NCBI RefSeq assembly: GCF_000745005.1
Contig: NZ_JQNB01000001.1
Span: 2,845,501 to 2,909,500, forward strand
Source: Luteibacter sp. 9135
GTDB lineage: Bacteria; Pseudomonadota; Gammaproteobacteria; Xanthomonadales; Rhodanobacteraceae
Direction: 5' to 3'
DNA length: 64,000 nt
Below, piece by piece: positions 8,584-60,930 of the stretch. The notes below the pieces were generated by a model. The model made no database searches. It was given only the letters and a program-made list of their open reading frames with translations, and was not told where the DNA came from. Each line of letters begins with the position of its first letter. Positions within the stretch are counted from its first letter, which is position 1. The translations under genes and the position numbers were made by a program.

Positions 8584-8677
8584 CCTTACCGGCTGCGACG
8601 GCGTTTCATCACGGATAGCCGGCGCCGGACGCGCCGGAACGGGCCACCGGCCCCTCGACACGACTTACGGAGTTGGC

Positions 8678-12401: not shown

Positions 12402-13168
12402 ACGGCGGGCGTGTCGCGGGGCAGGGCGGCCAACGCCTCGTTCAGTTCGTAGCGGAAGCGCTCTATGGCAGCGAGCGGAACGACGGTGCGGGTTTCCAGC
12501 ACGTGGTTTTGCAAGGCCCTGGCCTGGGCACCCAGGCGCGCGGTACCGCAGAACCCGCAAGCGGAACGCAGGCGATGCAGGCGGTCGATCAGGTCGGTCG
12601 GACGACGCGCCAGGTCGTCCAGCGCGGCCTCCAGTTCGACCAGTTCGACACGCAGCAACTGGCGCAGTGCCAGCAGGGTGATGGCATCGCCACTGGCCGC
12701 GCGCCCCGCGTCGTCGTCCAGCACCTGCAGATGTCCCTCGATGCCGAGCGTGGCGGCTAGTGCGTGGCTGAGCGCCGCGAGCTGGCAGGGTTTTTCGATC
12801 ACGCCGGCGAAGCCCGCCGCCAGCAAGGCCTCGCGCAAACGGGCGGGAATCTCCGCGCTGGTGGCCAGGGCCACGGCGTCGCGCGACCGGGCGGAAGGAT
12901 CGGCGCGCAGCGCCGGCAGCAAGGCCTCGGCACCGGCGCCCGGCATGCGGCAATCCAGCAGGAGCGCGTCGAACGGCTGTCGCCTGGCGAGGTCCAGGGC
13001 GCGGTCGCCATCGGCCGCGACGTCTACCCGATAGCCGAGCGATCGCAGCGCCTGCGCCAGGAACACACGGGTAGCCTCGTCGTCGTCAGCCACCAGGACA
13101 TGCCGTGGCGTCGGCGCGGAAGGGGCGGACAGATACTGCTCGATCATGCAACGTTCCGTGTTGTTCAT
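12398..13168 (-). CDS. Response regulator with C-terminal Hpt-like domain
   Basis: A 256-residue two-domain signalling protein. The receiver domain (about 22-138) begins HVLVADDDEATR, has the acceptor Asp in ALLLDCRMPG and the switch Lys in VIEKP. The second half (about 150-250) is helical and contains HRLRSACGFCGTARLG, which fits the H-x(2)-[KR]-x-[GA] pattern of histidine phosphotransfer domains. Starts at 13168 and 13147 are both possible; neither has a strong ribosome site. No histidine kinase is adjacent, so the partner is unlinked. Confidence 0.87.
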   Translation of the reverse strand: MNNTERCMIEQYLSAPSAPTPRHVLVADDDEATRVFLAQALRSLGYRVDVAADGDRALDLARRQPFDALLLDCRMPGAGAEALLPALRADPSARSRDAVALATSAEIPARLREALLAAGFAGVIEKPCQLAALSHALAATLGIEGHLQVLDDDAGRAASGDAITLLALRQLLRVELVELEAALDDLARRPTDLIDRLHRLRSACGFCGTARLGAQARALQNHVLETRTVVPLAAIERFRYELNEALAALPRDTPAV

Positions 13169-13192
13169 CTTGATTTGGCAGAATGGCGGAGC

Positions 13193-45619: not shown

Positions 45620-46492
45620 ATGATGATCCATCACTACACGAGCGTTAAGAACCTTTCGCTTATTTTGAAAAATCGCACGTTAAGGTTTGGTCGGGCAGAT
45701 CAGCTGGATGATCCGTCCGAAGTGCCCTTCCGGACAGATCGTCTCGGGCCTCATCGGTTCTTCGTCAGCTCCTGGTGCCAAGGACTTCGTGGAGAAGCAG
45801 GATTGTGGCATCGGTATGCTGACCGCGATCACGGTGTGCGGCTTTCACTTCCTCGGATGCCCTTTGACTGGACACGCTATGCCGTAGAGTTTTCGCGCAT
45901 GTGCAACATTCACGGGCACATGAAGAAAATTGGCGTCAAAATTTTGGACGTGGTAATGCCGTTTGGCGAAGAGACGCTTTTTGGTAACGGTTACATGGTT
46001 ACGCCCACTTGGACGGATCTCCCAAACGCATTTGGTGCACCAGTAATCTACGTCGATGACCCGATCACTGAAGCCGCAAAAACAGTGGTCGTAGATGGCG
46101 AAAGGTTGACGATTCACGGTGATAGTAATCGCCTGGCACGCGTAAAGGGACTAGCTTGGTCAGATCAGGACGAATATCGTTTCGTGCTCTCAGCGATCGG
46201 CGGCCCGAAGCTGGATTACGCAGAAGATCCCGCGCGATATCGAGAGGCGATGATGGACATCATGGAGTCCGGGGCTAAGATTGGGTTTGATAAATTTCAT
46301 CCGGATGTCCCGGCCATCTTTGTGCCTTTTGGCGCGAACGCGTTCGTCGGGATGACCGTCACGTTGGGACCGCAGATATCCACGGAGGATCGGATCATGG
46401 TCACCCAGCTAGTTCACGACTTAGCGCCGTCAGCGAGCGTGGTGGAAAGCAAACTCAGAACGCGCATTCGACCTTCCGGCGTAACTTCTTAA
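45620..46492 (+). CDS. DUF2971-like protein
   Basis: A 290-residue soluble protein. The N-terminus IHHYTSVKNLSLILKNRTLRFGRADQLDDPSE followed by FFVSSWCQ and GLWHRYADRDHGVRLSL matches the general pattern of DUF2971 proteins. In these, a short helix is followed by 'dP.E' and 'cfS....ims.lWahYa'. The family is common in mobile islands and near defence genes, and its function is unknown. The coding DNA is A+T-richer than the chromosome. The start is one of two adjacent ATGs. Confidence 0.75.
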   Translation: MMIHHYTSVKNLSLILKNRTLRFGRADQLDDPSEVPFRTDRLGPHRFFVSSWCQGLRGEAGLWHRYADRDHGVRLSLPRMPFDWTRYAVEFSRMCNIHGHMKKIGVKILDVVMPFGEETLFGNGYMVTPTWTDLPNAFGAPVIYVDDPITEAAKTVVVDGERLTIHGDSNRLARVKGLAWSDQDEYRFVLSAIGGPKLDYAEDPARYREAMMDIMESGAKIGFDKFHPDVPAIFVPFGANAFVGMTVTLGPQISTEDRIMVTQLVHDLAPSASVVESKLRTRIRPSGVTS

Positions 46493-46584
46493 CCGTGAGG
46501 ATGGTGAGCAGGGCCGCTGCGTGTCCGTATCACCACATGAGACTCACAAGTCAGTGACGCGTGATTACGCTAGCCAGTGCACAG

Positions 46585-47703
46585 TTATGGGGCGGTGGCG
46601 CGCCCGCCCGCTTTGCGGCTCTGTTTACTGCGCGGCTGGCGCTGCTCCGTCTCATCCTCCCAGATGCGTAATACCTCCTGCATCACAGAAACCAACGGTT
46701 CCATGGCCGATTTGCCATCGCGCCAGTGCCGTCCATCCTCCCAGATGGTTCGCAGGGCGATCCTCAAAGGCTCGAAGCATCCAGCCAGGACGCTGGTGCG
46801 GGCAGGCGTCGAAAAATGCGTCACGCCTTCGGCGATGCCCATGCCGTCCAGGTGGCCGGTCAGATAAGCGGCCGTGAGCAACGGCTTGGTGGCCACACTT
46901 ACTCTGCGGATGAAGTCCGGCGCTGCCGCTGGCACGTCCCACCGGATTCGTCGGGTGCGTCGAGAAGGCGCGGGAAAGTCAGCGATGTCCCGTGCGATAC
47001 AGTTCTGAAAGTTGAAAAGGGCGCCTGCATAGTCGCCGGCCCAGGCGCTCAACCGGCACGCGGCATACTCATCCCAGATTGGATAGGCGAGATTCAACCA
47101 AGCGCGGTGCTGCCAAGCAAGCCGCGGGGTGTCGAACAGGTCGCGCCACTCGCGATTCGATCGATAGCGGGCGAATACGACATGGGCCAGTTCGTGGACC
47201 ACGATGTTGTGAGCGAGATCCGGCCCTGACGGGCGCAGCAAGGTCATGAGAAAGGTCGCGTCGAGGACCACGTAGCGATCGGGACGGTCGCCCCCGATGG
47301 TCAGCACGCATCCGGCTGCCGTCCTCAGCCAGCGCTTGAAGCGCTCTGAAGCCGCAGGCGAGCGGTGGTTCGGGACACGATCAATCTGCGTCACGATCGC
47401 TTCCAGATCGAACGTGACCGTCACACCCTTCATCACGGTTAGATCCCACTGCGCAGCGCGACTTTCCACGATGACGCGGACGGCCCGCAGGAGTGCGCGA
47501 ATCTTGCGTGGGTCGTGGCCTCGGCCTGAGTAGGTCAGGAGGCAACGGCGCCTAGAGTATGGGCGAAGGGAAAGACAAATTGCTCGAATTCTGGGCCTGA
47601 ATGGTCTTATTCCCACTTCACTGTGAACCTCCGCTTCGAGTCGCGGCTTGGAGCAAACGTCGGCCGGGGCATAAACAGGTGGAGCAAGAGGCTGAGCGAT
47701 CAA
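46585..47703 (-). CDS. Putative HEXXH-motif (zincin-like) protein
   Basis: Up to 372 residues. The central feature is LAHNIVVHELAHVVFARYRSN, a helix with HELAH, the zinc-site pattern of gluzincin or ImmA-like proteases. A candidate third ligand is a Glu in PIWDEYAACRLSAW about 40 residues later. The C-terminus is basic and Gln-rich. The longest frame starts at a TTG (47703). The true start may be internal, for example the ATG at 47433 (MKGVTVTFDLEAIV), since the first 90 residues are Arg-rich and unconserved in style. I do not recognise the family; protease activity is inferred from the motif only. Confidence 0.65.
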   Translation of the reverse strand: MIAQPLAPPVYAPADVCSKPRLEAEVHSEVGIRPFRPRIRAICLSLRPYSRRRCLLTYSGRGHDPRKIRALLRAVRVIVESRAAQWDLTVMKGVTVTFDLEAIVTQIDRVPNHRSPAASERFKRWLRTAAGCVLTIGGDRPDRYVVLDATFLMTLLRPSGPDLAHNIVVHELAHVVFARYRSNREWRDLFDTPRLAWQHRAWLNLAYPIWDEYAACRLSAWAGDYAGALFNFQNCIARDIADFPAPSRRTRRIRWDVPAAAPDFIRRVSVATKPLLTAAYLTGHLDGMGIAEGVTHFSTPARTSVLAGCFEPLRIALRTIWEDGRHWRDGKSAMEPLVSVMQEVLRIWEDETEQRQPRSKQSRKAGGRATAP

Positions 47704-47807
47704 AGCATCATGATGCGGTAGGGATAGGGTGAATAAGTCTAGTCGGGGCTCATCGGGAGCTTTGAACCATCCACCTCAAGAGATAGAAATCGAATGTCGA
47801 TTCCTCT

Positions 47808-48086
47808 TCATAACCTCGGGTCGCAGGGCCCCTCGTGTCCAGCGTCTTGCTTACACCGGGAGCCACATACCCGTCGAGCGACCTCCAAATCTCGCCTCAA
47901 GTGTGAGCCGAGTGCTGCGGATTCGGCACGGTTCGCTCTATCCCACGCCGCCTGCGCCGAACTTCTAAGTAGATTGGAAGACGACCAACCCATCTCATCT
48001 GCAAAATCGGCAAGACTTTCATCTTCGTTCGCGAGCGCTCTCATTGATGCCGCCAGTCGATCTAGATAACCGTGGTTCGTAGTCAT
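47808..48086 (-). CDS. Small hypothetical protein
   Basis: A 92-residue protein (MTTNHGYLDRLAASMRALANEDESLADFADEMGWSSSNL at its start) with a strong GGAGGA site 7 bases before the ATG, so translation is well supported. The N-terminal half is predicted helical and acidic. The C-terminal third has three Cys and a His in a CGSRCKQDAGHEGPC pattern, compatible with a small metal site. Unknown family. It is divergent from the gene at 48199. Confidence 0.75.
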   Translation of the reverse strand: MTTNHGYLDRLAASMRALANEDESLADFADEMGWSSSNLLRSSAQAAWDRANRAESAALGSHLRRDLEVARRVCGSRCKQDAGHEGPCDPRL

Positions 48087-48198
48087 CAGTATTCCTCCGT
48101 CTTTTAGTTTGATGAGGTAACGCCAATCGCCAGAGCCGTCACTCCCTCGCGGCTAGAAGAGCTGTTAAGGTTCGATCTTCGCCGACAAGGAGCATGGA

Positions 48199-48690
48199 AT
48201 GGGACAGGTTGCAGGTGATCTCAATTTTCTCCTGCAGAGATCCAAGGCTTACAGCGCATACTTGCTAGAGGGTGACCCTTTACAGCAAGAGATGGAGCCT
48301 ATCTTAAGTTGGCATATCGAAGCATTGGCACTTTTGCAGCATTCCGACCGTCTTTCTGAGATCGAGACGGCGTTGCATCAGCTACGAGATCGGCCCGGCA
48401 TGGCGGTTGCCGTAAACGCGATCGAGGCTGAGATCAGCTCAATTAGAGGCGTTTTTGAAAGAATCTGGAAAAGAATGCCCTTTCACAAGGCGAGGGATTC
48501 TGATTCGCCTGAGACTGATGACAAGCTCACCGCCGAAGAAGGGGAGCGTGCTGCATCCTGGCAGATCGGGCTTCTTCAGACGCTGCTGAAGTCACTGGTC
48601 GAGATCCTCAGTGAAAGTGCGTCGCCTCTACTAAAATCGGTTTTTGGCCTCGTTAATGAGGGCATAGAGCACATCCGCTCGCGGCGGTAG
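48199..48690 (+). CDS. Hypothetical helical protein
   Basis: A 163-residue, largely helical protein (MGQVAGDLNFLLQRSKAYSA...) ending with SVFGLVNEGIEHIRSRR. An AAGGAG site lies 6 bases upstream of the ATG. No motif is recognised. Its last 60 bases overlap the end of a minus-strand frame that starts at 48914. It stands alone on the plus strand between minus-strand genes. Confidence 0.75.
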   Translation: MGQVAGDLNFLLQRSKAYSAYLLEGDPLQQEMEPILSWHIEALALLQHSDRLSEIETALHQLRDRPGMAVAVNAIEAEISSIRGVFERIWKRMPFHKARDSDSPETDDKLTAEEGERAASWQIGLLQTLLKSLVEILSESASPLLKSVFGLVNEGIEHIRSRR

Positions 48691-48914
48691 TTCGGTCCCC
48701 ACACTGACATGCGTGGCCAGGGCGATCTCTACCAGTTTGGCTTCCACGATGGGAGTTTTGATCCGCCTTATCGCTTCCCACGATAGCGACTTAGACACCA
48801 CCTCCAATTGGCCAAGCCAGCCTCTAGGTCGTCGGCAGGTTCTGTCGCAATGATCTGTCCACCGATGCAATGACCGAGCGAGGCGTTGCTTTGTAGAGCA
48901 TCTAATAGGCTCAT
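48631..48914 (-). pseudogene. Small gene with an apparent one-base frameshift
   Basis: From the ATG at 48914 the frame reads MSLLDALQSNASLGHCIGGQ, then IIATEPADDLEA, and stops early. A second frame takes over at 48817-48824 (GAGGCTGG region) with WLGQLEVVSKSLSWEAIRR and ends ADVLYALINEAKNRF. Inserting one base joins them into a sensible protein of about 94 residues. It begins 24 bases after the stop of the 462-residue gene upstream, so the two form one unit. It could be a decayed gene, a sequencing error or programmed frameshifting. Confidence 0.5.
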
Positions 48915-48938
48915 CGAATCAGACTATCGCTTTGGCAT

Positions 48939-50327
48939 TTAGATGAGCGATGCGTCGCTGCTGCCATGTGTCGCGAAAGCGGCGAGGGCTTTTGAGACGG
49001 TGGTATCTGGGTCGGTGGAATTTCCCGCGAAATGGATGTATTCCTCAAGCTGGTCACGCGTAACCAGCGCGATCTTTCGGTCTCGAAATTCGTCAGTTGT
49101 CATTGCGACTTGTTGCCGGTGCTGGCGGGTTACGAGCACCGCAAGAATCGGCCGGGCTGATCTTGAGGTCGATAGTGCGGCCTCAAGCGCGTGGCGCCGG
49201 TCCACCAGTTTTCCCACTTTGTTGTGAACATCCTTGGACTGGAGCGTGCATTCGATCAGGACCATCTGGCCGCCGGGTGTGGTCAGCACGATGTCCGGGG
49301 AATCTGTTTCGAGTTGAACGGAGGGTGCGAACCCACGGAGGAAAGCCAGCGCAGCCACTGCAAGTTCGAACTTCTCAGGTTGCGTGCCTTCGAGGAGGTT
49401 GAAGCGCACCTGTTTGAGATCGCGGTCAAAAGTCCGCATGGCCAGTAGTCGTTCGTTTTGAGACTTGGCGGGATGTGGAAACCATTGGCGCTGAACGCAA
49501 GCGTTGCCCACGCTTAGCACCACTAGGGCGCGCTCTGCTAGCGGTAGTTTGACTGTTGCCTTCCCGCGCCGAAGGCGCCCTTCCTGGATAAGGTCCCATT
49601 CGATATTTGAACCTACTTGGTGGCGCGAAGCCTGTGTCGGCCCCGGGTGTCCGACTACGGCGACGCCGACCATGTCTGTCCGCGTTCCGGGGTGCGCATC
49701 AATGGTTATGGTAAAGACTTCATCTTTGAAGCCCGATTCAGCGAAGGCGATATTACAAGGGGCGTTTAGAACGACCCGAAGGCTACCTTTCGATCGGTGT
49801 TCTCGGGGGTCCAAGACGGCCAACCAACGAACCAACTCATCGAGCCCATCGAATGGAATGTCTCCCATTCGAAGGGCCTGGTCGATCGCTGACAAGGCGG
49901 TGGCTTCGGGTAACGAAGTTGGTTGATTCCCCGAAATCATTACTGTAGGTCGGATCGCCCATTCCTGATTCGTCCGATCACGCTTAGCCGAAAGTAACGC
50001 GTGCTTGCGCAGGGATAAAGTCAGATTCCCGACGGCAATATCCCCTCTAACGGCTGAGTCCACAATGTTGATGATCGCTTCAGGAGTCAGATCATTCTGA
50101 ATATATTGACCGGCAATGAGACCTTCTGCTTCGACCTGGAAGGAGGAGATACCGTCTACCGGGAGTGGATAGAGGACCAGCTCACCCGTTAGTAGCTCCA
50201 TGTCGCCGGAGGTATTTAGATGGCCGATGTATCGGAAGTCGGCAGCGTAAGGGTCGCTTGCCCACACCTTCAGGCTGGCCAAAAGTTCATGCGTGGCTTC
50301 GTTGAACTTATCTAACACACTTGTCAT
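48939..50327 (-). CDS. Large hypothetical protein with possible PD-(D/E)XK restriction-like C-terminal domain
   Basis: A 462-residue soluble protein. The first 330 residues show no familiar motif. Near residue 350 it reads VQLETDSPDIVLTTPGGQMVLIECTLQSKD, the beta-hairpin layout of restriction-endonuclease-like folds: Asp, 10-15 residues, then hydrophobic-E-x-[KT]. Here the last residue is Thr rather than Lys. A following strand (ILAVLVTRQH) and the KIALVTRDQLEEYI helix fit the same fold. It could be a nuclease or a defence effector; the Thr may mean altered or lost catalysis. The start at 50327 has a weak CGGAAG site. Confidence 0.7.
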   Translation of the reverse strand: MTSVLDKFNEATHELLASLKVWASDPYAADFRYIGHLNTSGDMELLTGELVLYPLPVDGISSFQVEAEGLIAGQYIQNDLTPEAIINIVDSAVRGDIAVGNLTLSLRKHALLSAKRDRTNQEWAIRPTVMISGNQPTSLPEATALSAIDQALRMGDIPFDGLDELVRWLAVLDPREHRSKGSLRVVLNAPCNIAFAESGFKDEVFTITIDAHPGTRTDMVGVAVVGHPGPTQASRHQVGSNIEWDLIQEGRLRRGKATVKLPLAERALVVLSVGNACVQRQWFPHPAKSQNERLLAMRTFDRDLKQVRFNLLEGTQPEKFELAVAALAFLRGFAPSVQLETDSPDIVLTTPGGQMVLIECTLQSKDVHNKVGKLVDRRHALEAALSTSRSARPILAVLVTRQHRQQVAMTTDEFRDRKIALVTRDQLEEYIHFAGNSTDPDTTVSKALAAFATHGSSDASLI

Positions 50328-50605: not shown

Positions 50606-51784
50606 TCAGATCAAATTACGCGCCGAGGTAATTTCCCGCAGGAAGGTTTCAGGGAACCCGCCGCGCCTACGAGCATCAATCGCAACGGGAGCGTGGCCCG
50701 GCACGGTCAATCCAATGCGCTCAGCGGCGTCACGCACGCGCGCTCCATAGGGCCGATCGGGCGACGCTTTAGCCGCCATAGTGACCCATTTATTCCCGAT
50801 AGCCGTGTGAAGCTCTTCGTCCCTGCCGAACATTGATAGCAGATGTGCCGAGCGAAAGTCACCCACCGCGCAAAACGATCGCGACAGCGCTTGAACAGAG
50901 TCAAGGGCATTGCCTTCTTGGACCAACTGCTCGATGCAGAGGCACTCGATGGCATCGCGCCCTGCCATCCATCTGTCCCACACCTTTAAGGAGTAGCGTA
51001 GGCCGACAGCGGGACGCCCGATTTCATCGCATCGTAAGAGGCATGCTTGGGCGTGGCGTGCTTCGTCCCAGCATTGGCGTGCCATGTCAACCTTGAAAGC
51101 GATGGGCAGGTCGCGGAAACGAACGATGCTCGCCGCACATACCTCCATGGCCGAAAGCTCGATATCGGCGAAAACATCGTGAAGGATTTGGGCCCGTCCC
51201 TCTGGACTTTCAATCAGCGATGCCCACGTTGGTTCGTTGCCCTGCCTTGGTTCGAGGTCCGGGGCACGTCGCGGAGACGCCAGGGTTGCCGGGACAGGTA
51301 GCGATAGTGCATAGATGACGATTGGCCCAGACATAGAAATCGGGCAAGGGCAACTAGGCTTCGGGAAGTGCGCGGCGAGCGTCGCCTCAAGGACCTCGCT
51401 CGGCCCGTTCAATACCGTCTCCAAGTGATCCGCAAGCCTCCGCTCCCGTGATGCCGCGAGAAAGGCGCCAAGGAGCTCGGTCATCTGATCGGAGGCGGCG
51501 TGGATAGCGTGGTCCCCCTCCACCATCGTAAGTCGCTCGAATTCCTCTTCAAGTCCGGTTGGTGCCAGCAACCGCGTGTCCGCAGTCAGCTCGGTAAAGC
51601 GCAAGTGCGCGAGCGATAAGGCCCAACCCAGCTTGCCGATGCGCTGGCCAAGCGTAAGTTTGAGCTCAGTTGAAGCAGCACGCGGGAGCCAGCAAGCGTG
51701 GAACTCAAGTGCGCGAACGAACACATAACACAGCGCGCCGCTCCCCGATATTGCTCGGATTAACGGGTTGGTGTGCTCAGGCAT
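50606..51784 (-). CDS. Ferritin-like diiron protein in a peptide-modification cluster
   Basis: 392 residues. The pattern of a four-helix diiron carboxylate bundle is visible. VFADIELSAMEVC gives the first Glu, CWDEARHAQ the first ExxH, CIEQLVQEGNA the second Glu and GRDEELHTAIGNKW the second ExxH. This resembles DUF455/ferritin-like oxygenases. The N-terminal 200 residues are a helical domain without known motifs. The ATG at 51784 lies inside the end of the upstream gene (8-base overlap). In the cluster it could oxidise, hydroxylate or cleave the peptide product, an inference. It is the last gene of the unit. Confidence 0.8.
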   Translation of the reverse strand: MPEHTNPLIRAISGSGALCYVFVRALEFHACWLPRAASTELKLTLGQRIGKLGWALSLAHLRFTELTADTRLLAPTGLEEEFERLTMVEGDHAIHAASDQMTELLGAFLAASRERRLADHLETVLNGPSEVLEATLAAHFPKPSCPCPISMSGPIVIYALSLPVPATLASPRRAPDLEPRQGNEPTWASLIESPEGRAQILHDVFADIELSAMEVCAASIVRFRDLPIAFKVDMARQCWDEARHAQACLLRCDEIGRPAVGLRYSLKVWDRWMAGRDAIECLCIEQLVQEGNALDSVQALSRSFCAVGDFRSAHLLSMFGRDEELHTAIGNKWVTMAAKASPDRPYGARVRDAAERIGLTVPGHAPVAIDARRRGGFPETFLREITSARNLI

Positions 51785-52724
51785 GTCCAAGCCTTTGAGC
51801 ACCATGGCGCCAATAAAGCCGACCCAGGACAGCGTTGAACTGGAAGACTTCTGGCATGACCGCAACCACAGCCGCGCTTAGCCACTTCTCCCATTTTTGA
51901 TCCGGTGGAGGTGTGGACTGGGCGAGTTCTTCTTCTAAGAGGGATCGCGCCTTGGCGTTATCGCCCAAACTATGGAAGGCCAAGGCTCGCATCAGGCGCA
52001 ACGGCGCAGCCACGCGGGTCCCGACAAACTCAATCATCCGATCAAGGCAGGGCAGGGCGTCCCGCCGGTCCCAACCGAATGTAGCCTCTCGCAGGACATT
52101 TGCGGGAATGGGCCGCTCTAGACGAAATACAGCTGATTCGCCAACCTTGTCATGCTCAAGACTCACATAGTCGAGCAGCCCGGCCATGCTGTGTGCGATC
52201 CAGGGTTGGGTGGGGGAATAGAAGTCCTGGTGGATAATCAGCGAGTGGCCGGGGACCATTTGAGGAAGCCATCGTTGAAGGACGAATCCATTCAGCGCTG
52301 GCGTTTTAGCAAGATCGATGACGGCCAGCTCGATCGCTCGATCAACGCGGCCAACCTGGACCAACTCTCCGGCGCGGACTTCCACACGCGGTGTATCTCG
52401 CCCAAGGTTCCGTAGGAATATAGGAAGGAACGACTCACCAAACCGAATGTCGGCTCCTATTCCTGCTAAAAACTCCACTACATAGTGATCGGAGGCTGTA
52501 AACCGATCGATGGCGATGATGGGTGGCTCGGGTGGTTCATGTTGTTGATTGCGGGCTTCTAAGCCTCGGATCAACGCCTTGGTGCTAGCGCCGATAAAGC
52601 ACCCCGCATCAACGATACACCCTTCGCCACGAAAGTGTCTGCGCACGATCTGTTCGTAATAATCGGCTTCTGAGTCCTCGATGAACCCGCCGAGGTCGTC
52701 CCCAACAACGACGCGCATCGTCAC
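51777..52724 (-). CDS. Class I methyltransferase-fold protein
   Basis: 315 residues. The segment GEGCIVDAGCFIGASTKALIRGLE resembles SAM-binding motif I (hydrophobic-D-x-G-x-x-x-G-x-S/T) as in TylF/CmcI-type enzymes. IIAIDRFTASDHY and LAVIDLAKTPAL provide the later acidic motifs. A C-terminal helical part (RLMRALAFHSLGDNAKARSLLEEEL) looks like a TPR pair. The GTG start overlaps the oxygenase stop (GTGA). An ATG 6 bases later is also possible. Methyl transfer on the peptide product is a guess; the fold is fairly clear. Confidence 0.75.
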   Translation of the reverse strand: MTMRVVVGDDLGGFIEDSEADYYEQIVRRHFRGEGCIVDAGCFIGASTKALIRGLEARNQQHEPPEPPIIAIDRFTASDHYVVEFLAGIGADIRFGESFLPIFLRNLGRDTPRVEVRAGELVQVGRVDRAIELAVIDLAKTPALNGFVLQRWLPQMVPGHSLIIHQDFYSPTQPWIAHSMAGLLDYVSLEHDKVGESAVFRLERPIPANVLREATFGWDRRDALPCLDRMIEFVGTRVAAPLRLMRALAFHSLGDNAKARSLLEEELAQSTPPPDQKWEKWLSAAVVAVMPEVFQFNAVLGRLYWRHGAQRLGHA

Positions 52725-53839
52725 ACCTCGACCGCTTCGGAGGGAAAAGAATCCATTAGGGCCGCTCGCGCACCAGCGTTCACGGAAAGTCGCTCGGAAG
52801 GGCCGCCCGTCAAGAATGAAGCAAGAAGGCCCTGCGCGCCGCCCTGCTCCAAAAGGTTTGCGATCTCGATTTCCAAGAGTTCACCAATTGTCGCGTCGTC
52901 GAGCGTGAGGACCACGTCATCCATGCCTGTCAGACGCGCCTTGCCGGTGGTCATGGCCGGTATCCACGCCGCTGGACGCTCAAGCACGCCGAATACAAAT
53001 GCCAACTCCTCTGCGCGAGCGCCGATGACGGAGCGGACCGCAGCTCGCTCGTGTCGACTGATGCTTCGCCGACTGTAGATGGATGTGCCGTAGATGCTAT
53101 GGAAGAGGCCAGCCAGGCAGACATGCTCAGCGCAATCCCACTTCTTGAGGAGTCGCCAAGTGCCCACCAGGTGTTCCATCAGGCTTCGCCCGGAATGGCC
53201 GCTCGCCTCAGCACCATGCCGACGTAGGAACTCAAGAAGGTTCGCGCGAGGCATGGGTGAGCCATCCGATGCGATGCTGGAAGGCGTGCGTTGCATCTTG
53301 AAAACCAGCGTCATCCGAAGTGCGGGACACTCGCGGCTGACGGAGCGAGCAACGTGCTTGACGGTGCCATCGAAAACGATGAGGCGCCCCGGCCTGGGCG
53401 TCACCGCTTCACATTCACCGGATTCTCCAATGAACATGGTCTCACCAGCCCATTCCGCACTCCATGCCGGGTTTACATATACCAACGCCGTTAGAGCATC
53501 CTCGCCCGGCTTCGCGTCCCTGTGAACGTGGCCATCAAGGCCATACGTGTGCCCGTTCGCATAGCAGCGGACTAGCTGATAGTCGGGAGTGAACTGGTCC
53601 CGTATCTTTGCCCACACGGATGCGATCGCGGCGAGCTTGGGATCGCTGGCAAGTAGCTCATCCTGTCGGAAATATTCGTCGGGACGGCGGCTTCCACAGA
53701 AATGAATGTGCCAGAACGGTGTCTCCGCAGCCCCGGTGTTGGAGCGCCATCCGTAGGACCAGACCTCGCCTTTGAAATGGTGGGCGAGTAGGGCAGGGTC
53801 GACAAAGTCGTCAACGACCTTAAGCTTGGTGTGTAGCAT
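52721..53839 (-). CDS. 2-oxoglutarate/Fe(II) oxygenase fused to a DUF6817-like domain
   Basis: 372 residues in two domains. Residues 1-185 are a prolyl-4-hydroxylase-type jelly roll. The iron ligands are His106 and Asp108 (GHVHRD) with distal His162 (DGTVKHVARSV), and Arg175 in ALRMTLVFK may bind 2-oxoglutarate. Residues 195-365 hold a helical His-rich region (EHLVGTWRLLKKWDCAEHVCLAGLFHSIYGT). This is the DUF6817/HD-like layout found beside oxygenases and aminotransferases. It sits in the middle of the secreted-peptide cluster and could hydroxylate the substrate protein. The start is ATG at 53839. Confidence 0.82.
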   Translation of the reverse strand: MLHTKLKVVDDFVDPALLAHHFKGEVWSYGWRSNTGAAETPFWHIHFCGSRRPDEYFRQDELLASDPKLAAIASVWAKIRDQFTPDYQLVRCYANGHTYGLDGHVHRDAKPGEDALTALVYVNPAWSAEWAGETMFIGESGECEAVTPRPGRLIVFDGTVKHVARSVSRECPALRMTLVFKMQRTPSSIASDGSPMPRANLLEFLRRHGAEASGHSGRSLMEHLVGTWRLLKKWDCAEHVCLAGLFHSIYGTSIYSRRSISRHERAAVRSVIGARAEELAFVFGVLERPAAWIPAMTTGKARLTGMDDVVLTLDDATIGELLEIEIANLLEQGGAQGLLASFLTGGPSERLSVNAGARAALMDSFPSEAVEV

Positions 53840-53868
53840 GACGGTTCCGTGCTCGTTGATGTTGGAGG

Positions 53869-54567
53869 TCAGGCAGCAAGTCCAGTCCAGTCCAATGCTT
53901 CACTCGACGAAAGCGGCCCTCCGATTGCCGTCAGGCATTCAAGCGCTTCGTGGGCGAGTAGAGACGACTTTCCGGATGCAGCTGCTACCAGTGCCGCGTC
54001 GAGGCGAGCAATCACGTTCGGCGCTGACTGGGCACACCACTTGCGCATGAGTGGGCTCGATGCCAACCAGCCGGTGTAGCTCAGTGATCGGACGGCGAGA
54101 ATGGTTTGGTAGGTATCGACGGCAAGGAGTTGGCTATCAACGGTGTCGTGCTCACGGCCGATGTCACCGAGTTTGGCCATCAAGGCAAGTCTGTATACCG
54201 TCCAGTTCGGGCGGATTTTCCTGCTCGGCCATGATGACTGGCTCTCCGCCGCAAGGGACGCGAGGACACCATCCTTGTCACTGAGAATGCGGCCCGTGGC
54301 GAGCGCATGGGTATAGAACGATATAAAGCGCGACCGTTGCTCTTGCCAAGCGGATCTGAGTGACGCATCGCTGTGAAGGTGAATATCGAGAAGTCCGTGT
54401 GGCGTCGGAATCTTCTTACGACGCAGTGAAGTAACGCCGTCGGCGAGGACGATAACGTCAATATCAGAATGCTCATCGACAGGACCAACGACGTGAGATC
54501 CAAAAAGAAGCACGCCGTGGTTCGCGCCTAGCGTCTGCCGGACAAGCGAGAGGATGATCTGCGACAT
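53869..54567 (-). CDS. Minimal nucleotidyltransferase-fold protein
   Basis: 232 residues. The N-terminus carries the polymerase-beta-like motif GVLLFGSHVVGPVDEHSDIDVIVL (GS, then SDIDV with two Asp metal ligands), and a third acidic strand (LLDIHLHSD) follows. The rest is helical (LALMAKLGDIGREHD). Such proteins transfer nucleotides to proteins, RNAs or small molecules; some act as toxins or antitoxins. Its place between the precursor and the oxygenase suggests a role in modification or self-protection, an inference. Confidence 0.8.
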   Translation of the reverse strand: MSQIILSLVRQTLGANHGVLLFGSHVVGPVDEHSDIDVIVLADGVTSLRRKKIPTPHGLLDIHLHSDASLRSAWQEQRSRFISFYTHALATGRILSDKDGVLASLAAESQSSWPSRKIRPNWTVYRLALMAKLGDIGREHDTVDSQLLAVDTYQTILAVRSLSYTGWLASSPLMRKWCAQSAPNVIARLDAALVAAASGKSSLLAHEALECLTAIGGPLSSSEALDWTGLAA

Positions 54568-54645
54568 GGTGCGGTCCGATGAAGGGCAAATCGCGGCTGC
54601 AAGGGCGCACTCCCTACAGCCGCGGGCTCAGCGCGTTTTCTCAGA

Positions 54646-55185
54646 TCAGCTCTGGATCGGGCCGACCGTCACAGTGCCGTCGCCGCCACCGCTGTCGCCG
54701 CCGCCGTCACCGTAGCTGCCACCGCCGTCTGCGTAGTAGCCGCCGTCACCGCCGTCACCGCCGCCACCACCGCCGCCCGTGCCTGCTTGGTTGCCATTGG
54801 GATCGATCGCGAGGTGGTGGTTGGTCACAACATCGTGGAACATCGCATTGATCGCGTCGGAAGCTGAGGCTTGGCCACCGTTGCTGTAGGCGTTCCAGTC
54901 GATATTTTCGGGATGGACGATCTCGAAATACTGCCCCGGTGGCGCATGTTCGCCAGCCTGGATGAACGTGTTGTAGTCGTTTTCCAGATACTGGAACTGC
55001 AGGTTGTTGACGTTTGCCGACAACTTGGCGTAGTCGAGCGACGTAAACAGCTTGCCGGCAACGCCGCTATCCAACCCACCTTCGGCAGCCAGATCGATGG
55101 CGGCCTTGGCAAGCACTTCAAACTGTTCTTCGCCAGCATCGCCACCATAGACCTGCGACAGCTCGGAGATATTCAACTCGCGCAT
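54646..55185 (-). CDS. Double-glycine leader precursor protein with Gly-rich tail
   Basis: 179 residues. The first 15 (MRELNISELSQVYGG) form a textbook double-glycine leader: Gly at -1 and -2, Val at -4, Leu at -7 and -12, the pattern cut by C39 peptidase exporters. The next 115 residues are a helical acidic region (EQFEVLAKAAIDLAAEGGLDS...). From residue 131 the chain is a low-complexity Gly/Asp/Tyr/Ser tail, then TVTVGPIQS. A GGAG site lies 8 bases upstream. It lies directly downstream of the C39 exporter and is presumably its substrate. It is long for a bacteriocin and could be a toxin, a signal or a structural product. Candidate modification sites are the Asp, Tyr and Ser residues in the tail. 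Confidence 0.85.
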   Translation of the reverse strand: MRELNISELSQVYGGDAGEEQFEVLAKAAIDLAAEGGLDSGVAGKLFTSLDYAKLSANVNNLQFQYLENDYNTFIQAGEHAPPGQYFEIVHPENIDWNAYSNGGQASASDAINAMFHDVVTNHHLAIDPNGNQAGTGGGGGGGDGGDGGYYADGGGSYGDGGGDSGGGDGTVTVGPIQS

Positions 55186-55211
55186 TGGTCAAACTCCATT
55201 TCGGTTAAGGG

Positions 55212-55868
55212 TTACTTCTCTTCGGTTGCCTGGCACGCCAGCTTCGAGCGGAGCGAAGTTGGCATTACCGTGCTCGGGCCTAAGCGTTTGAGGAGCGCGC
55301 TCACGCGCTTACCCTCACCAGCTCGGCAAACTTCATATCCATGATCAACCAACCATTCCGCGGCTTCTGCTTGGTCGCCGGCGATGGCAGCCTCTAGGGC
55401 GCCACGCGGGACGTTGTCGGTCTTGTCGGGCGTTGATCCCGATGCCAGGCTCGCCCCGGCCTTGAAGAGCGCTGTCATGGCGTCGACGTGACCACACTGC
55501 GCCGCCATGACGATCGGAGCAGATACTGTCATGTCCGTGGTGCCATTAGGATTCGCACCCTGAGCGAGCAGCGTTTCCACCGCGCTCTGGTTTCCCGTCC
55601 AAGCGGCGCCCACCAAGGCTTGGTCAAGAGCGGCACTGTGTGTTGTTGCCGCGGCGGAACCGAGCGAAGCTATGGCATTCTTGAGCGACGCGTCGTTCCC
55701 GCTGAAGACAGCAAGCTGCAGCTGAGTCGCTGGGTCCGCCGAGGAACCTTTCGCCCGCATGGCTTGAAGCGCGGCCGCCTGATTGGACTGGCAGGTTGTG
55801 GGGCTCGCGTGAGCGACTGTGCCCGCGCCAATGAGCAGGAAGGCGAAACAGCCAACGTGAAGTTTCAT
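55212..55868 (-). CDS. Secreted ankyrin-repeat protein
   Basis: 218 residues with a signal peptide (MKLHVGCFAFLLIGAGTVAHAS). Three to four ankyrin-like repeats follow: LDQALVGAAWTGNQSAVETLLAQGANPN, APIVMAAQCGHVDAMTALFKAGA, ALEAAIAGDQAEAAEWLVDHG. Two of its Cys residues flank the repeats. An AAGGA site precedes the ATG at 55868. It lies between exporter and precursor genes. A periplasmic ankyrin protein here may be an immunity or chaperone factor, an inference. Confidence 0.85.
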   Translation of the reverse strand: MKLHVGCFAFLLIGAGTVAHASPTTCQSNQAAALQAMRAKGSSADPATQLQLAVFSGNDASLKNAIASLGSAAATTHSAALDQALVGAAWTGNQSAVETLLAQGANPNGTTDMTVSAPIVMAAQCGHVDAMTALFKAGASLASGSTPDKTDNVPRGALEAAIAGDQAEAAEWLVDHGYEVCRAGEGKRVSALLKRLGPSTVMPTSLRSKLACQATEEK

Positions 55869-55877
55869 GGTCAATCC

Positions 55878-58031
55878 TTAGCGTTTGGGCTTGGTGAGGT
55901 GGATAACTCGATCCGCAGTCTCGATGACCTCGGGCCGGTGTGAAATAAAGATTCGGGTGGTTCCCGACTGGCGTAGCGTCTCCGCGATCCGATGCTCAAG
56001 GTCGGGATCAAGGTGGCTAGTCGCCTCATCCATGATGAGAATCCGCGGACGGCGATAAAACGCACGAGCCAGGAACATGCGCTGTTGTTGGCCTCCGGAT
56101 AGACTCGAACCCATATCGCCAACGAGGGTATGAAACCCCATCGGCATCTTCACGATGTCATCGTAAATCTCGGCTTGACGAGCTGCGTCTTCGACGCGCT
56201 GAGGGTCGGCCTCTTCATCAAAGAAGCTGATGTTGTCGGCGACTGTTCCCGAAAAGAGGCGGTCATCCTGCATGACCGTAGAGGTCATCTGCCGGAGCCG
56301 CGCCTTGCCCAGATGCTTCAGATCAATGCCGCCGATCTCGATTCGCCCCTGATTCGGATCCAATAAGCCAACCAGGATGCGAACGAGGGTGCTTTTCCCA
56401 CAACCGGATGGACCGACAACGACCACTGACTCTCCGGCGGCGACCTCAAAGGACACGTCCTTAATTATCCACGGCTCGCCGGCCGCATACCGGAAGGCCA
56501 GACGTTCCGCCACGATGGTCGGCTCAGGGTCAGGGCCGGCATACGCGCCGTGGCCGGAAGGCTCCGCAGGCGTCAGGACGATGTCGGCGAGGCGCTCCCC
56601 TTGCATACGAAGGAGACGAAGTTCAATGATGTAATCGACCAAGCTTGATGCCCGAGTGGCGAACTGATCGCCATAGGCGGCAAATGCCATGAGCATGCCG
56701 GCGCTGAAATCTCCCTTGATGGCCATCCAGGCGCCGAGCCAAAGCACCCCGATCTTCTGGATACCACTTGTGATGGTGCTGAAGGACGAGAAGATCATGC
56801 TCAAGCGCTGAACGACAATGCTAGCGTTTAGCGACTCCGCCGTGACGTTCATATAGTTGGACGAGCGGACGGACTCTTTGTTGAATAGCCGGATGGTCTG
56901 AACACCGCGTGCCGACTCCATGAACTGCGATTGTTGCTTTGCGTTGATCACGATCTGCCCGAGGTTTGCCTCGCGATACACCCGGTAGTAGAGCAGTCGG
57001 CTGAGCGTGTATAGCCCGATAGCACCGACGATGATGGCGGTGAGCAACGGGCTGTAGACGAGCAATAGAATGCCAGTGGCAATCGCCATGACCCCGTCCA
57101 TAACCACTTCGACAAACCGGGTGGTAAGAGTCTTTTGGATGTTCGCGATGACGCCGAATCGCGAGACGATGTCACCGAGATGTCGACGGAGGAACCAACC
57201 CTGTGGGAGTCGAAGCAAGTGCTGAAAAACGTTACCCGTCCATTTCAGCGAGAACTGACTGGTCATCCAAGTGATAGTCCAGGTTCTGGCTGCACCGACA
57301 ATCACCTGCAGAAGTAAGAGAAAGGAAAAACTGATGCCTAGGAAGGTCAGTAGGTCAAGATCGCTGTCGGCGAGGACTTGGTCGACTACGATTTCCAGGA
57401 ACTGTGGCGCAAGAAGCGAGAAGAGCTCTAGCACCGCCGCCAATGCGAACACCACCGCCAGGGATCGACCGAGACCCTGGACCGAGCCCACGATGTCACG
57501 CATGGCAATCGGTGGCTCGGCCCGTTTTCGCCGAAAGTCCGGGCCGCGCGTTACCTCGACGGCAATGCCGGTGAAGTGCTTGGAAGCTTCTTTAATGGAA
57601 AGGCTGCGTTCACCGACAGCGGGATCATGGATGATGAGGCGTCGCTCATTGACACTTCGAAGCACGACGAAGTGGTTCATATCCCAATGTAGAATAGCTG
57701 GTGAATCGAGCTGTCCCAGTTCCGAAAGTTCTAGTTTGACCGGGCGGCTGTTAAGTCCCATCTCACGAGCGATCTGCAGCATGCGTTCCAACTTCATGCC
57801 CTTGAGCGAGCTGGTAAAACGATGCCGCATTTCGGATAACGTCACATGATGCTGAAAGTATCCGGCTACCATTGCGAGGCAAGCGAGGCCGCATTCGGCA
57901 GCTTCGCTCTGGCGGATCAAAGGCAATCGTCGACGTGTGCCGAAGTGGAGAAGTCCGTCGGTGGCGGCGTGGTCGGTGACGAATCCGCCCGCGACGGATT
58001 CGCGTTGCTTCGTCGGGACGTTATCCATCAT
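55878..58031 (-). CDS. C39-peptidase ABC exporter (PCAT) for a double-glycine substrate
   Basis: A 717-residue bifunctional exporter. Residues 35-145 are the cysteine peptidase: Cys47 in QSEAAECGLACLA, His120 in HWDMNHFVVL, Asp136 in HDPAVG. Five or six TM helices lie at about 190-450. The ATPase shows Walker A GPSGCGKSTL, signature LSGGQQQR, Walker B ILIMDEATSHLD and a switch His. It cuts the leader after Gly-Gly while exporting the product. The ATG overlaps the HlyD stop (ATGA), with AGAGG just upstream. Downstream lie the ankyrin and precursor genes. Confidence 0.94.
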   Translation of the reverse strand: MMDNVPTKQRESVAGGFVTDHAATDGLLHFGTRRRLPLIRQSEAAECGLACLAMVAGYFQHHVTLSEMRHRFTSSLKGMKLERMLQIAREMGLNSRPVKLELSELGQLDSPAILHWDMNHFVVLRSVNERRLIIHDPAVGERSLSIKEASKHFTGIAVEVTRGPDFRRKRAEPPIAMRDIVGSVQGLGRSLAVVFALAAVLELFSLLAPQFLEIVVDQVLADSDLDLLTFLGISFSFLLLLQVIVGAARTWTITWMTSQFSLKWTGNVFQHLLRLPQGWFLRRHLGDIVSRFGVIANIQKTLTTRFVEVVMDGVMAIATGILLLVYSPLLTAIIVGAIGLYTLSRLLYYRVYREANLGQIVINAKQQSQFMESARGVQTIRLFNKESVRSSNYMNVTAESLNASIVVQRLSMIFSSFSTITSGIQKIGVLWLGAWMAIKGDFSAGMLMAFAAYGDQFATRASSLVDYIIELRLLRMQGERLADIVLTPAEPSGHGAYAGPDPEPTIVAERLAFRYAAGEPWIIKDVSFEVAAGESVVVVGPSGCGKSTLVRILVGLLDPNQGRIEIGGIDLKHLGKARLRQMTSTVMQDDRLFSGTVADNISFFDEEADPQRVEDAARQAEIYDDIVKMPMGFHTLVGDMGSSLSGGQQQRMFLARAFYRRPRILIMDEATSHLDPDLEHRIAETLRQSGTTRIFISHRPEVIETADRVIHLTKPKR

Positions 58032-59296
58032 TGTTCAACCTCTGCGCGGCGACGCATGCCGTAGATTGGCTCCAGTGCCCATTCGATGATCCGTCGTCGA
58101 TCCAGCAGCATGTCCGCGTCCAAGGCCATTCCTGGCTTCAGCGCCGCCGGCTTGCCGTAGGCAACGACTTCTTGGGCATCCAACGCAACCACCACGCGAT
58201 ACATGGGTTCTTTGGGAGGGTCACCGCCCAACAGTTCGGTGAGTTCGTGCTGGGTTAACGCGCCTTTGGACACCTCAACCACGCGGCCGCGTTGAACACC
58301 GAACTTTTGATAAGGAAAAGCTTGGTAGTGGAGCGCCACGGTCGTTCCCGCCGACACGAACCCGGCGGCGCTACTGGGGACCATCAAATCGGCTTGGAGC
58401 GGGGATCCATCGGGCACGATCGACATGAGACGGTCACCCGATTCGATGGCCTGCCCAAGCGCAACAATCAGGCCGGTGACCGTGCCAGAGGCGGGTGCCC
58501 TGAGCACAGAACTGCGGTCGAGCTCGTTTTGTGCGAGGGATTGATCGTTCTGCGAAAGTTGGTGATTCAGGTCACTTACCTTAGCGGCTGTGGTCAACGG
58601 GAGTTGTTCGAGCTGATCACGGACCGAATCGAGTTGCTGTTTCGACTCAAAGTGTCGGCGCTGAAGGTCTTTGACTTGTGTTTCGGCGGTAAGCTTCTGC
58701 ATACGCTGTTGCTGAACGTCCAGAGCCGATACGTAACCTTTGGATGTCAGCGGCTCAATGCGAGCGAGTAGATCTCCGACGGAAGACGCTTGTTGCTGCG
58801 CCAGGCCCTCTTGGGCGTCGATACGATCAATCTGCTCCGTTAGCATGCGTTCCTGCATATGGAGATCGGACTCTTGCTTGGCCGCGAGCGCTGTGGCGTC
58901 GTGGATATCGTTCCGAATACGGGTTTGCTCGGCGGTGAGCTGCCGCGAAATGGCGGCAGAGGTGTCGCCTAAGGTAGTGCTGCTGCGTTCGCCAGAGAGT
59001 TCGACGATTGGGTCGCCCTTTCTGACATGTTCTCCATCAGATACCAAAAACCGGGCTACCGTGCCAGCGGCGCGGGCGTTCACTGAGACCATGCCGGCGG
59101 TCGGGGTGAGCACACCATCGACGTGCTCCCGACGGGTATACGTGCCGATGAATAGCCACGCAATGATTGCAACGCCGGTCAATCCCGCACCCCATGCCCA
59201 GGCCAAATGCGTAAGAGGGGACGCAATTTGAACGACCCCATGGAAGGAGACGCGGCGCCGCTCTGCGATTTCTTCGCGGAATAGTCCGTCAGCCAT
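58028..59296 (-). CDS. HlyD/CvaA-type periplasmic adaptor
   Basis: 422 residues. One TM helix at about 33-52 (WGAGLTGVAIIAWLFIGTY) is followed by a beta-barrel/lipoyl region (DGVLTPTAGMVSVNARAAGTVARFLVSDGEHVRKGDPIVEL). A long coiled coil (about 105-255) and the returning lipoyl half (LRAPASGTVTGLIVALGQAI) come next. This is the membrane-fusion partner of a type I secretion system and would join the exporter to an unlinked TolC-like channel. It is the first gene of the cluster. Its promoter must lie in the A+T-rich gap upstream. Confidence 0.93.
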   Translation of the reverse strand: MADGLFREEIAERRRVSFHGVVQIASPLTHLAWAWGAGLTGVAIIAWLFIGTYTRREHVDGVLTPTAGMVSVNARAAGTVARFLVSDGEHVRKGDPIVELSGERSSTTLGDTSAAISRQLTAEQTRIRNDIHDATALAAKQESDLHMQERMLTEQIDRIDAQEGLAQQQASSVGDLLARIEPLTSKGYVSALDVQQQRMQKLTAETQVKDLQRRHFESKQQLDSVRDQLEQLPLTTAAKVSDLNHQLSQNDQSLAQNELDRSSVLRAPASGTVTGLIVALGQAIESGDRLMSIVPDGSPLQADLMVPSSAAGFVSAGTTVALHYQAFPYQKFGVQRGRVVEVSKGALTQHELTELLGGDPPKEPMYRVVVALDAQEVVAYGKPAALKPGMALDADMLLDRRRIIEWALEPIYGMRRRAEVEQ

Positions 59297-59613
59297 TCAG
59301 CACTCGATCGCATGTGAAAACGTGGCGAAGCTAACAGATAAAAATCTCAATCAAATCGTAAATTATTGATGTCATAAAGCAAATTTAAATGGTCAATGAC
59401 GGATTTTCGATTTAAGTCAACGCTGATTCATAGGAGCAAAATCTTACTGTAGGGGTTCGCCTACAAGCGCTGGGGCAATTGGCCTACACGCCAAGAGCGG
59501 CGTGGATGTGGAAATGACAAGACAGTTATTGCCCTTCCGCTGCCGTATCGATAGAGGCGCTTTCGTTTTGTCATTCGCTACTCGTATAGTCGTTGTCCCA
59601 ATCGGAGGTAGAC
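59297..59613. other. A+T-rich divergent intergenic region
   Basis: 317 bases between the HlyD gene (minus) and the aspartyl protease gene (plus). The half next to HlyD is the most A+T-rich stretch of the window, with several near-consensus but not convincing -10 and -35 hexamers on both strands. A short GTAGG/CCTAC inverted repeat lies at 59449-59464. It likely holds both promoters and could be bound by an H-NS-like silencer; I cannot place the start sites. Confidence 0.5.
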
Positions 59614-60888
59614 ATGGAAGGAAATGCGACGCAGGTCATAAAAGCGCTTCTTAAGCTCGTGACCATTGCGGCACTCATTGGACTCACCGCGAATGGCGCA
59701 GCTTGCGCCGAGGATACCTCCCCACCGCTGACTGAGACTGCGCTGCGAGACGCTGTCCGCGCCGCAGATGCGCCTGGCTTACTCTTGGCCTTCCAACATC
59801 CAGCGAATGATGCATCACGAGTGCTGGCGGCCATAGGGTTGGATAGGGTGACCTGGCAACTCGACCATTCATCGGCGACGGCACGGACATGCGCTAAAGC
59901 CCTTGCTTCTACGCAGGCTCCTACGGCGTTCTTTTGTGCCAAGTTTGAAGCGGGCAACCTTCGACTCAAAGGTCGTTATTCGGATGCCTCCCGGTTGGAC
60001 GCAGCGGCGGCCGACGCATTTCCTGACGTAGCGAAAGCAGATATTCCTTTCCAGGCGTTCATGCGCGACAACGCCCTCTATGTAGCCATGCCTTCCGTTG
60101 TCGCCGAACACCCAAGTGATGTGACCATTCCTGTTCACTTCGACGCGGCACACGCGTTTTCGCTGGATGCCACCGTGAATGGTCAACTCCTGGCAGTCGG
60201 TCTCGACACAGGTTCAGCGACGACACTGAGCCGGTCGACTGCGAAACGCTTAGGCGTGCAGGTGGTGATTGCGGACCATGGTAAGGCCATCGGTCTGCTG
60301 GGAAAGTCCTCCCCACAGAGCCTTGGCGTTATTGACGAGCTTAAGATTGGATCGGCGATAGTGCGACATTTGCCCGTGGAGATCGTTGACGAGGGTAGAG
60401 ATGTCGTCGGAAACGACGCCTTGATGCAACTGGGTCGTTTTCGCTTGACTAAGGATACGCTTACCCTTCCATCGAGTGCCGACGCTCTCTCATCGTGTCG
60501 AGAGCCAATGTTGGTGAGCACAGCCGCTTTTGGAGGCGGCACGCTTCTGGTCAAGCCTTTGCAAGTCAACGGAGCAACCCGGCTTGTGCTGATCGACACA
60601 GGCGATTCGTTCGTGTTGACCGGGACTGCTTCGGCGGCTGTAGACGCACGGGGTGGTCGCCATCGGCGTGTCATGACCCGTGACCTCACCAGAGCAGATC
60701 AGTCAGTGGATACTGTGGAAGGGCACGCGGCTATTACGCTCGGTGGTCGCGACCACTCACTGAACTTCCCGATCTATTCCACGTCAAATCTTCCGTATCC
60801 TTACATTTTGGGCGGGGGAGCGCTGTCGGAAGTTACATTGGAGGTGGATTTTGAGAAGGCGCACGTATGCTTGACCCACCGAAGCTAG
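59614..60888 (+). CDS. Periplasmic retropepsin-like aspartyl protease with two DTG motifs
   Basis: 424 residues. A signal peptide (residues 9-32, LVTIAALIGLTANGAACA) is followed by about 130 helical residues. Then comes a first protease lobe with Asp198 in LLAVGLDTGSATTLS and a flap region IGLLGKSS. A second lobe has Asp328 in RLVLIDTGDSFVLTG and a final YILGGGALSEV strand. Two DTG lobes in one chain is the pepsin-like arrangement; in bacteria such proteins are rare and little studied. A GGAGG site precedes the ATG. The gene is divergent from the exporter cluster and may process or degrade its product. Confidence 0.85.
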   Translation: MEGNATQVIKALLKLVTIAALIGLTANGAACAEDTSPPLTETALRDAVRAADAPGLLLAFQHPANDASRVLAAIGLDRVTWQLDHSSATARTCAKALASTQAPTAFFCAKFEAGNLRLKGRYSDASRLDAAAADAFPDVAKADIPFQAFMRDNALYVAMPSVVAEHPSDVTIPVHFDAAHAFSLDATVNGQLLAVGLDTGSATTLSRSTAKRLGVQVVIADHGKAIGLLGKSSPQSLGVIDELKIGSAIVRHLPVEIVDEGRDVVGNDALMQLGRFRLTKDTLTLPSSADALSSCREPMLVSTAAFGGGTLLVKPLQVNGATRLVLIDTGDSFVLTGTASAAVDARGGRHRRVMTRDLTRADQSVDTVEGHAAITLGGRDHSLNFPIYSTSNLPYPYILGGGALSEVTLEVDFEKAHVCLTHRS

Positions 60889-60930
60889 GCAGCTAGGCCA
60901 GCGCGTCCCGGAAAGAAAAGCCTGGAAGAC

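Follow-up and report, generated by a model that had tools for sequence, protein, structure and literature searches.

A family of 2-oxoglutarate (2OG)/Fe(II) oxygenases, fused to or paired with a DUF6817 domain, recurs beside Gly/Asp-rich tails of bacteriocin-like and phage proteins. The pattern suggests an undescribed kind of tail tailoring, which may help such proteins to bind or enter bacteria. One member lies in a gene cluster of Luteibacter sp. 9135 (genome size 4.49 Mb), within a stretch of 64,000 nucleotides (G000:C1:2845501-2909500), referred to below as the window. By our estimate, chances are about even that this cluster makes a microcin-like, modified and exported protein with a hydroxylated Gly/Asp tail that forms a receptor or uptake module. 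The export architecture is already known. The tailoring set and its tie to Gly/Asp tracts in bacteriocin-like and phage proteins were not found, and DUF6817 was not mentioned, in the literature searched, a search that left most subscription papers and all bioRxiv preprints outside its range.

Loci were collected from named genomes with an enzyme profile (80 loci) and from viruses, where at least 495 stretches encode 2OG-DUF6817 relatives and 80 were kept (L111-L190). In a good part of the kept viral loci the enzyme stands beside Gly/Asp-tract proteins, for example those with poly(GGGGD). The family was cut at 140 bits, loci were made non-redundant at 80% identity, and a tract protein was defined by a Gly plus Asp content of at least 0.55 over 24 residues within six genes of the enzyme. 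Such a protein was found at 25 of 75 family loci vs. none of 23 distant 2OG family loci (Fisher test, 6e-4). The positive loci comprise 7 of 25 from genomes, including L101, which is the window's own cluster type in the same-genus genome G007, and 18 of 50 from viruses. Viral tract genes are concentrated next to the enzyme: 16 of 96 genes at distance 1, 3 of 88 at distance 2, 1 of 74 at distance 3, and 0 of 173 at distance 4 or more (distance 1 vs. 4 or more, Fisher test, 3e-8).

The composition of the tracts narrows the choice of target. Among 99 viral loci with (GGGGD)3 inside an open reading frame (ORF), 10 have an oxygenase match, 8 of them strong and no more than 440 bases away, whereas no family member accompanies (GGGGE)3 (0/18) or (GGGGN)3 (0/64); the comparison of 8/99 with 0/82 gives a Fisher value of 0.008. 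In whole viral records of at least 15 kb, a strong match occurs in 6 of 36 with the D-tract vs. 0 of 30 with E- or N-tracts. Proline is absent from 23 of 33 tracts and an aromatic residue from 15 of 33. Since many tracts lack these residues, Asp or Gly is left as the target if a single residue type serves all, and Asp is preferred because, in addition, the E- and N-tracts go without the enzyme. A PHROGs search of ten tract proteins (nine viral and one from genome locus L030) gave four tail-category matches, of which one, for the L132 protein, is clear (1.4e-19); in L115 a head family scores better than the tail family.

In the window, an earlier note made from the sequence alone had described eight minus-strand genes in close order, several of them overlapping by 4-8 bases. 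The ORF list places all eight on that strand at the positions given below, yet the note missed a ninth gene, a divergent aspartyl protease: the unit comprises nine genes because the block conserved with G007 ends at this gene. The features are as follows.

59593-60888, plus strand: secreted retropepsin-like aspartyl protease, divergent (PF13650, 45.7 bits, cut-off 24.3)
59297-59592, no strand: divergent intergenic region, likely with promoters in both directions (alignment with L101, promoter scan)
58028-59296, minus strand: HlyD-type membrane fusion protein (HlyD_3, PF13437, 63.9 bits)
55878-58031, minus strand: C39 peptidase-containing ABC exporter (PF03412, C39, 123.5 bits; PF00664; PF00005)
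55212-55874, minus strand: ankyrin-repeat protein, candidate immunity protein (Ank_2, PF12796, 37.6 bits, cut-off 27.3)
54646-55185, minus strand: precursor of 179 aa with a double-glycine leader, a middle part and a Gly/Asp/Tyr-rich tail (ORF and alignment)
55141-55185, minus strand: double-glycine leader of 15 residues, cut expected after GG (sequence)
54649-54777, minus strand: Gly/Asp-rich tail, residues 137-179 (alignment)
53869-54567, minus strand: nucleotidyltransferase-fold protein with a GS...DxD motif recognised by eye (NTP_transf_2, PF01909, 22.4 bits, cut-off 21)
52721-53839, minus strand: 2OG-DUF6817 fusion gene (2OG-FeII_Oxy_3 and DUF6817 Pfam matches)
53282-53839, minus strand: 2OG/Fe(II) oxygenase domain, residues 1-186, ligands H106, D108, H162 and R175 (2OG-FeII_Oxy_3, 30.8 bits, cut-off 27)
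52724-53257, minus strand: DUF6817 domain, a divergent HD-like fold with HD changed to HS (PF20680, 86.3 bits, cut-off 25.2)
51777-52724, minus strand: methyltransferase-like protein with a weak TPR-like C-terminus (Methyltransf_24, 14.6 bits, under the cut-off of 26.3)
50606 to about 51784, minus strand: DUF455 ferritin-like protein with candidate diiron ligands (PF04305, 90.3 bits, cut-off 34.3)

The overlaps amount to 4 nt for the HlyD and C39 genes, 4 nt for the 2OG and methyltransferase-like genes, and 8 nt for the methyltransferase-like and DUF455 genes if the latter starts at MPEHTNPL, as in L101. Positions 50627-60889 align to G007 in one piece with 81.8% DNA identity. With L101, the G007 locus, as the comparison copy, the ratio of non-synonymous to synonymous substitution rates (dN/dS) ranges from 0.027 to 0.163 across the nine genes, lowest in the exporter parts (HlyD protein, 96% identity, 0.027) and highest in the ankyrin protein, the least conserved of the nine (74% identity, 0.163); the value for the protease, which is 81% identical, covers the 350 residues called in L101. 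These ratios mark purifying selection on all nine genes. The gene block is more than a chance assembly, because it is kept whole in G007 and at these ratios. The full fusion occurs in G007 (88% identity), 1 of 22 sampled same-genus genomes; G017 encodes the two domains as separate genes. The protein database holds five close homologues of the fusion (62-92%). A promoter scan of the intergenic region returned one weak site, below the number in shuffles. The mobile island proposed in the note is borne out: horizontal acquisition of the cluster is supported by its lower content of guanine and cytosine (58.2% vs. 67.9% in window positions 1-43000), an integrase beside tRNA-Ala and a MobA/MobL gene nearby. 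The stretch from integrase to cluster (45620-50327) encodes four island proteins without a Pfam or PADLOC match.

That a protein with a double-glycine (GG) leader is matured and exported, as the note had claimed, is well supported. The window precursor carries the GG-type leader MRELNISELSQVYGG, which scores 14.7 bits with the TIGR01847 leader model, just below the cut-off of 15.7, and RELxxxEL...GG-type leaders are found at other loci. The exporter keeps the Cys motif, His and Asp of its C39 domain as well as an intact Walker A motif. Six precursors could be aligned end to end (window, G007 copy and four database homologues). All of them end in the same 13 residues, GGDGTVTVGPIQS, the last of which is Ser, and the preceding Gly/Asp/Tyr tract varies in length. 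The gene of the ankyrin protein, whose N-terminus resembles a signal peptide by eye, adjoins the precursor gene; the protein may serve immunity rather than be the product.

The oxygenase domain possesses the HxD...H iron triad and the 2OG-binding Arg, its predicted model shows a double-stranded beta-helix, and the predicted fold is like that of the protein hydroxylase PHD2/EGLN1. These catalytic residues are conserved in 75 of 75 family members. Identity as the 2OG oxygenase FlmC (NF052475) was rejected at 83.3 bits against a curated 240. DUF6817 is predicted to be HD-like; the catalytic Asp, present in the HD protein Lmo0812, is replaced by Ser (S54, invariant in 26 of 26 rows), and one extra His is invariant. 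With the catalytic dyad lost, a canonical HD phosphohydrolase was discarded. In P0042, P0046 and P0049, DUF6817 is fused also to domains of other oxygenase folds, either PF08007 (cupin-type) or PF05118 (aspartyl/asparaginyl hydroxylase-type).

Of the note's suggestion that four enzymes could modify the precursor, the presence of tailoring-type enzymes stands, and the precursor may be chemically modified in its core, as RiPPs are; the methyltransferase fold does not reach its cut-off. Assignment as an S-adenosylmethionine (SAM) methyltransferase (PF13578) was accordingly rejected, and no solved methyltransferase was found by profile; the protein has 30 homologues, with unrelated surroundings in the two loci inspected. 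The DUF455 protein keeps two ExxH pairs in L101. The MntA antitoxin nucleotidyltransferase was tried for the nucleotidyltransferase (19.2 bits vs. an NCBIfam cut-off of 60) and rejected, and an NCBIfam scan of the cluster proteins revealed no further family reaching its cut-off. In tblastn over L001-L100, the methyltransferase-like, DUF455, nucleotidyltransferase and ankyrin proteins matched window DNA and G007 only; the aspartyl protease search matched L101 only.

A peptidase-containing C39 exporter shares the oxygenase locus in 13 of the 80 named-genome loci (one cut by a contig end): Stenotrophomonas (2), Dyella, Rhodoferax, Sphingomonas (2), Roseateles, Mitsuaria, Herbaspirillum, Xanthomonas, Caulobacter (2) and Luteibacter anthropi. 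Each of the 13 has a GG precursor. The association of oxygenase (with or without DUF6817), C39 exporter and GG precursor seen in the window therefore recurs in other genera. The common denominator is the 2OG(-DUF6817) enzyme with a Gly/Asp(-Tyr/Trp) tract, phages included, and not the window's enzyme set. One subtype (L021, L022, L033, L042) combines a radical SAM protein (PF04055 confirmed in L021) with short precursors, and another (L031) has an ATP-grasp protein; L031 also encodes, at 13139-14128, a protein in which a second 2OG oxygenase domain accompanies a region weakly similar to C39 peptidases. Alphaproteobacterial clusters of Sphingomonas and Caulobacter (L024, L028, L032, L044) carry DUF6932 proteins (just under cut-off in L028; with weak Polbeta/NTP_transf_2 matches in L024) and precursors of 170-250 aa, most bearing Gly/Asp/aromatic tracts. 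In the Caulobacter cluster L032, a Fic-domain protein (8352-9215) is flanked on one side by a gene that by eye resembles outer membrane efflux genes and on the other by the DUF6932 and oxygenase genes. An Asp follows GG within five residues in 17 of 19 precursors compared. An Acetobacteraceae metagenome-assembled genome encodes, two genes off the oxygenase (L034:1224-3002), a 592-aa protein with very long DGGT/DGGY repeats.

At Pseudomonas loci, a family of 265-319 aa proteins with similar C-terminal ends adjoins the oxygenase (fragmented in L072 and L090); one member tested (L060) gave no Pfam match. The neighbour protein is hydrophobic and has a conserved, YGCC..DGY-like C-terminus at L037, L039, L052, L054, L055, L057, L060, L062, L065, L066, L067, L072 and L090, and several of the Pseudomonas loci contain a small membrane protein that could confer immunity.

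The following mechanism is proposed. The 179-residue precursor would be synthesised with its GG leader. In the cytoplasm, the 2OG oxygenase, aided by DUF6817, would add hydroxyl groups to the Gly/Asp-rich tail at the C-terminus, with Asp as the most likely site; steps that extend or mature this mark may fall to the nucleotidyltransferase-like, methyltransferase-like and DUF455 proteins. We infer the hydroxylation from the recurrent association of the enzyme with tracts. The C39/HlyD exporter would then cleave after GG and export the protein, a step well supported by the motifs described above. Outside, the modified tail would act as the receptor-binding or uptake module of a bacteriocin, and immunity would probably come from the ankyrin protein; this is the weakest step, and toxicity, TonB-dependent uptake and metal binding are speculative. 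Besides the association, the scheme is favoured by the identical tail ends of the six precursors, by a related motif among candidate substrates (counts below), and by a TonB-box-like core motif in 8 of 19 GG precursors (shuffled cores: mean 0.16, maximum 2 in 500 rounds).

Several observations weigh against this scheme. A tract protein is missing within six genes at 50 of the 75 family loci, and a strong family member is missing from 30 of the 36 long viral records bearing (GGGGD)3, so the tie between enzyme and tract is neither necessary nor sufficient. Gly and Asp are, moreover, in part a product of the criterion itself, since tracts were picked by their content of these two residues. The usual hydroxylation target of PHD- and P4H-type enzymes is proline. 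The window precursor has no Pfam match. All matches to the TonB-box-like motif stem from three loci with a single leader family. The Fur pattern has no match in the window, and the intergenic region 59297-59592 contains no Fur-box-like site.

If tail hydroxylation is correct, one enzyme family would tailor the Gly/Asp tails of unrelated proteins, namely exported microcin-like proteins of several proteobacterial genera, the Pseudomonas family and phage proteins. This would be a new protein modification with shared chemistry, would give DUF6817 a function and would link bacteriocin uptake to phage adsorption. In a bolder form, which we consider quite unlikely, 2OG-DUF6817 would turn the tracts into Fe(III)-binding beta-hydroxyaspartate arrays, an encoded siderophore mimic by which bacteriocins and phage tails dock on TonB-dependent iron receptors. 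If true, it would put into concrete chemical terms the Trojan-horse (Ferrojan) idea, set out in PMC11705849, that the iron of phage tails is recognised by siderophore receptors.

The most serious alternative, possible but rather less than probable, is that the oxygenase acts on a specific residue near the tract, such as the Pro of VxVGP[ILV], with the tract as a flexible spacer or metal-binding linker. The PHD2/P4H-like predicted fold is in its favour. So is the motif itself, which is strictly conserved while tract length varies: [VI]x[VI]GP[ILV][EDQN], related to the tail end, occurs in 9 of 26 candidate substrates vs. 3 of 1323 other called proteins, and is common to three unrelated substrate families: that of the window tail, the short precursors of the radical SAM subtype and, in part, the Pseudomonas proteins. 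However, 23 of 33 tracts lack Pro, the phage poly(GGGGD) ends inspected lack the motif, and the 82 loci with E- or N-tracts have no family member.

It is unlikely that the exported protein, modified tail included, serves as an adhesin, matrix component or signal rather than against bacteria. The lack of a Pfam match would suit such a role, as would tracts in phage proteins with tail matches and in large proteins such as that of L034, but some GG precursors have weak effector-like ends (SLT, 19.0 bits, cut-off 21.3; Peptidase_M91, 16.6 bits, cut-off 25), those of L023 and L027 end in hydrophobic Gly-zipper-like segments (by eye), and a candidate immunity gene adjoins the precursor. Improbable, too, is the idea that the nucleotidyltransferase places adenosine monophosphate or another nucleoside monophosphate on the oxygenase-made hydroxyl, which would yield a Trojan-horse nucleotide peptide comparable to microcin C. 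The nucleotidyltransferase-fold protein of the window, the DUF6932 proteins, the Fic protein of L032 and the resemblance of the DUF6817 fold to nucleotide phosphohydrolases are consistent with it. Nevertheless, the similarity to nucleotidyltransferases is weak, an antitoxin-like or regulatory protein is possible, and none was noticed in the Stenotrophomonas, Dyella and Xanthomonas clusters read, in which no systematic search was made.

Among known enzymes, PHD2/EGLN1 and the P4H hydroxylases are 16% identical to the window enzyme, which differs from them in its fusion or pairing with DUF6817 and in its association with Gly/Asp tracts, many without proline. DUF6817 resembles small alarmone hydrolases of the HD superfamily (MESH1, Rel; best Foldseek E 0.028) in predicted fold alone, and differs from them by Ser in place of the HD Asp and by the extra invariant His. 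PhnY/PhnZ, a 2OG oxygenase followed by an HD-fold oxygenase, act on a small phosphonate; their match to DUF6817 is weaker than that of the hydrolases, and the HD ligand is lost in DUF6817. On the export side, the C39 exporter is similar to that of NHLP/proteusin systems (TIGR03796, NHLP bacteriocin export, 485.3 bits), under the curated 853.3, and no NHLP leader model of NCBIfam matched the cluster proteins. Screened microcin candidates have been reported from Pantoea, Erwinia and Xanthomonas (PMC13174018), a paper whose main text does not use the word oxygenase. The window system also resembles class IIb (siderophore) microcins, which, according to PMC10233263, have a double-glycine leader, a C39 peptidase-ABC exporter with an HlyD-type protein, a Gly-rich C-terminal region ending in Ser, and extra tailoring genes. 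The window cluster has the leader, the exporter with its HlyD-type partner and extra tailoring-type genes; its tail is Gly-rich with a terminal Ser in all six precursors but also rich in Asp and Tyr, and the ankyrin gene beside the precursor may or may not correspond to the adjacent immunity gene of the class. That the cluster simply encodes such a microcin with a siderophore on its tail is very improbable, as Pfam and NCBIfam revealed no recognisable siderophore-attachment gene in the nine-gene unit, the rest of the genome not being searched. Compared with that class, the window system has a larger protein, an Asp/Tyr-rich tail, and, in place of siderophore-attachment genes, the oxygenase-DUF6817 fusion and its companion enzymes, a set foreign to the class.

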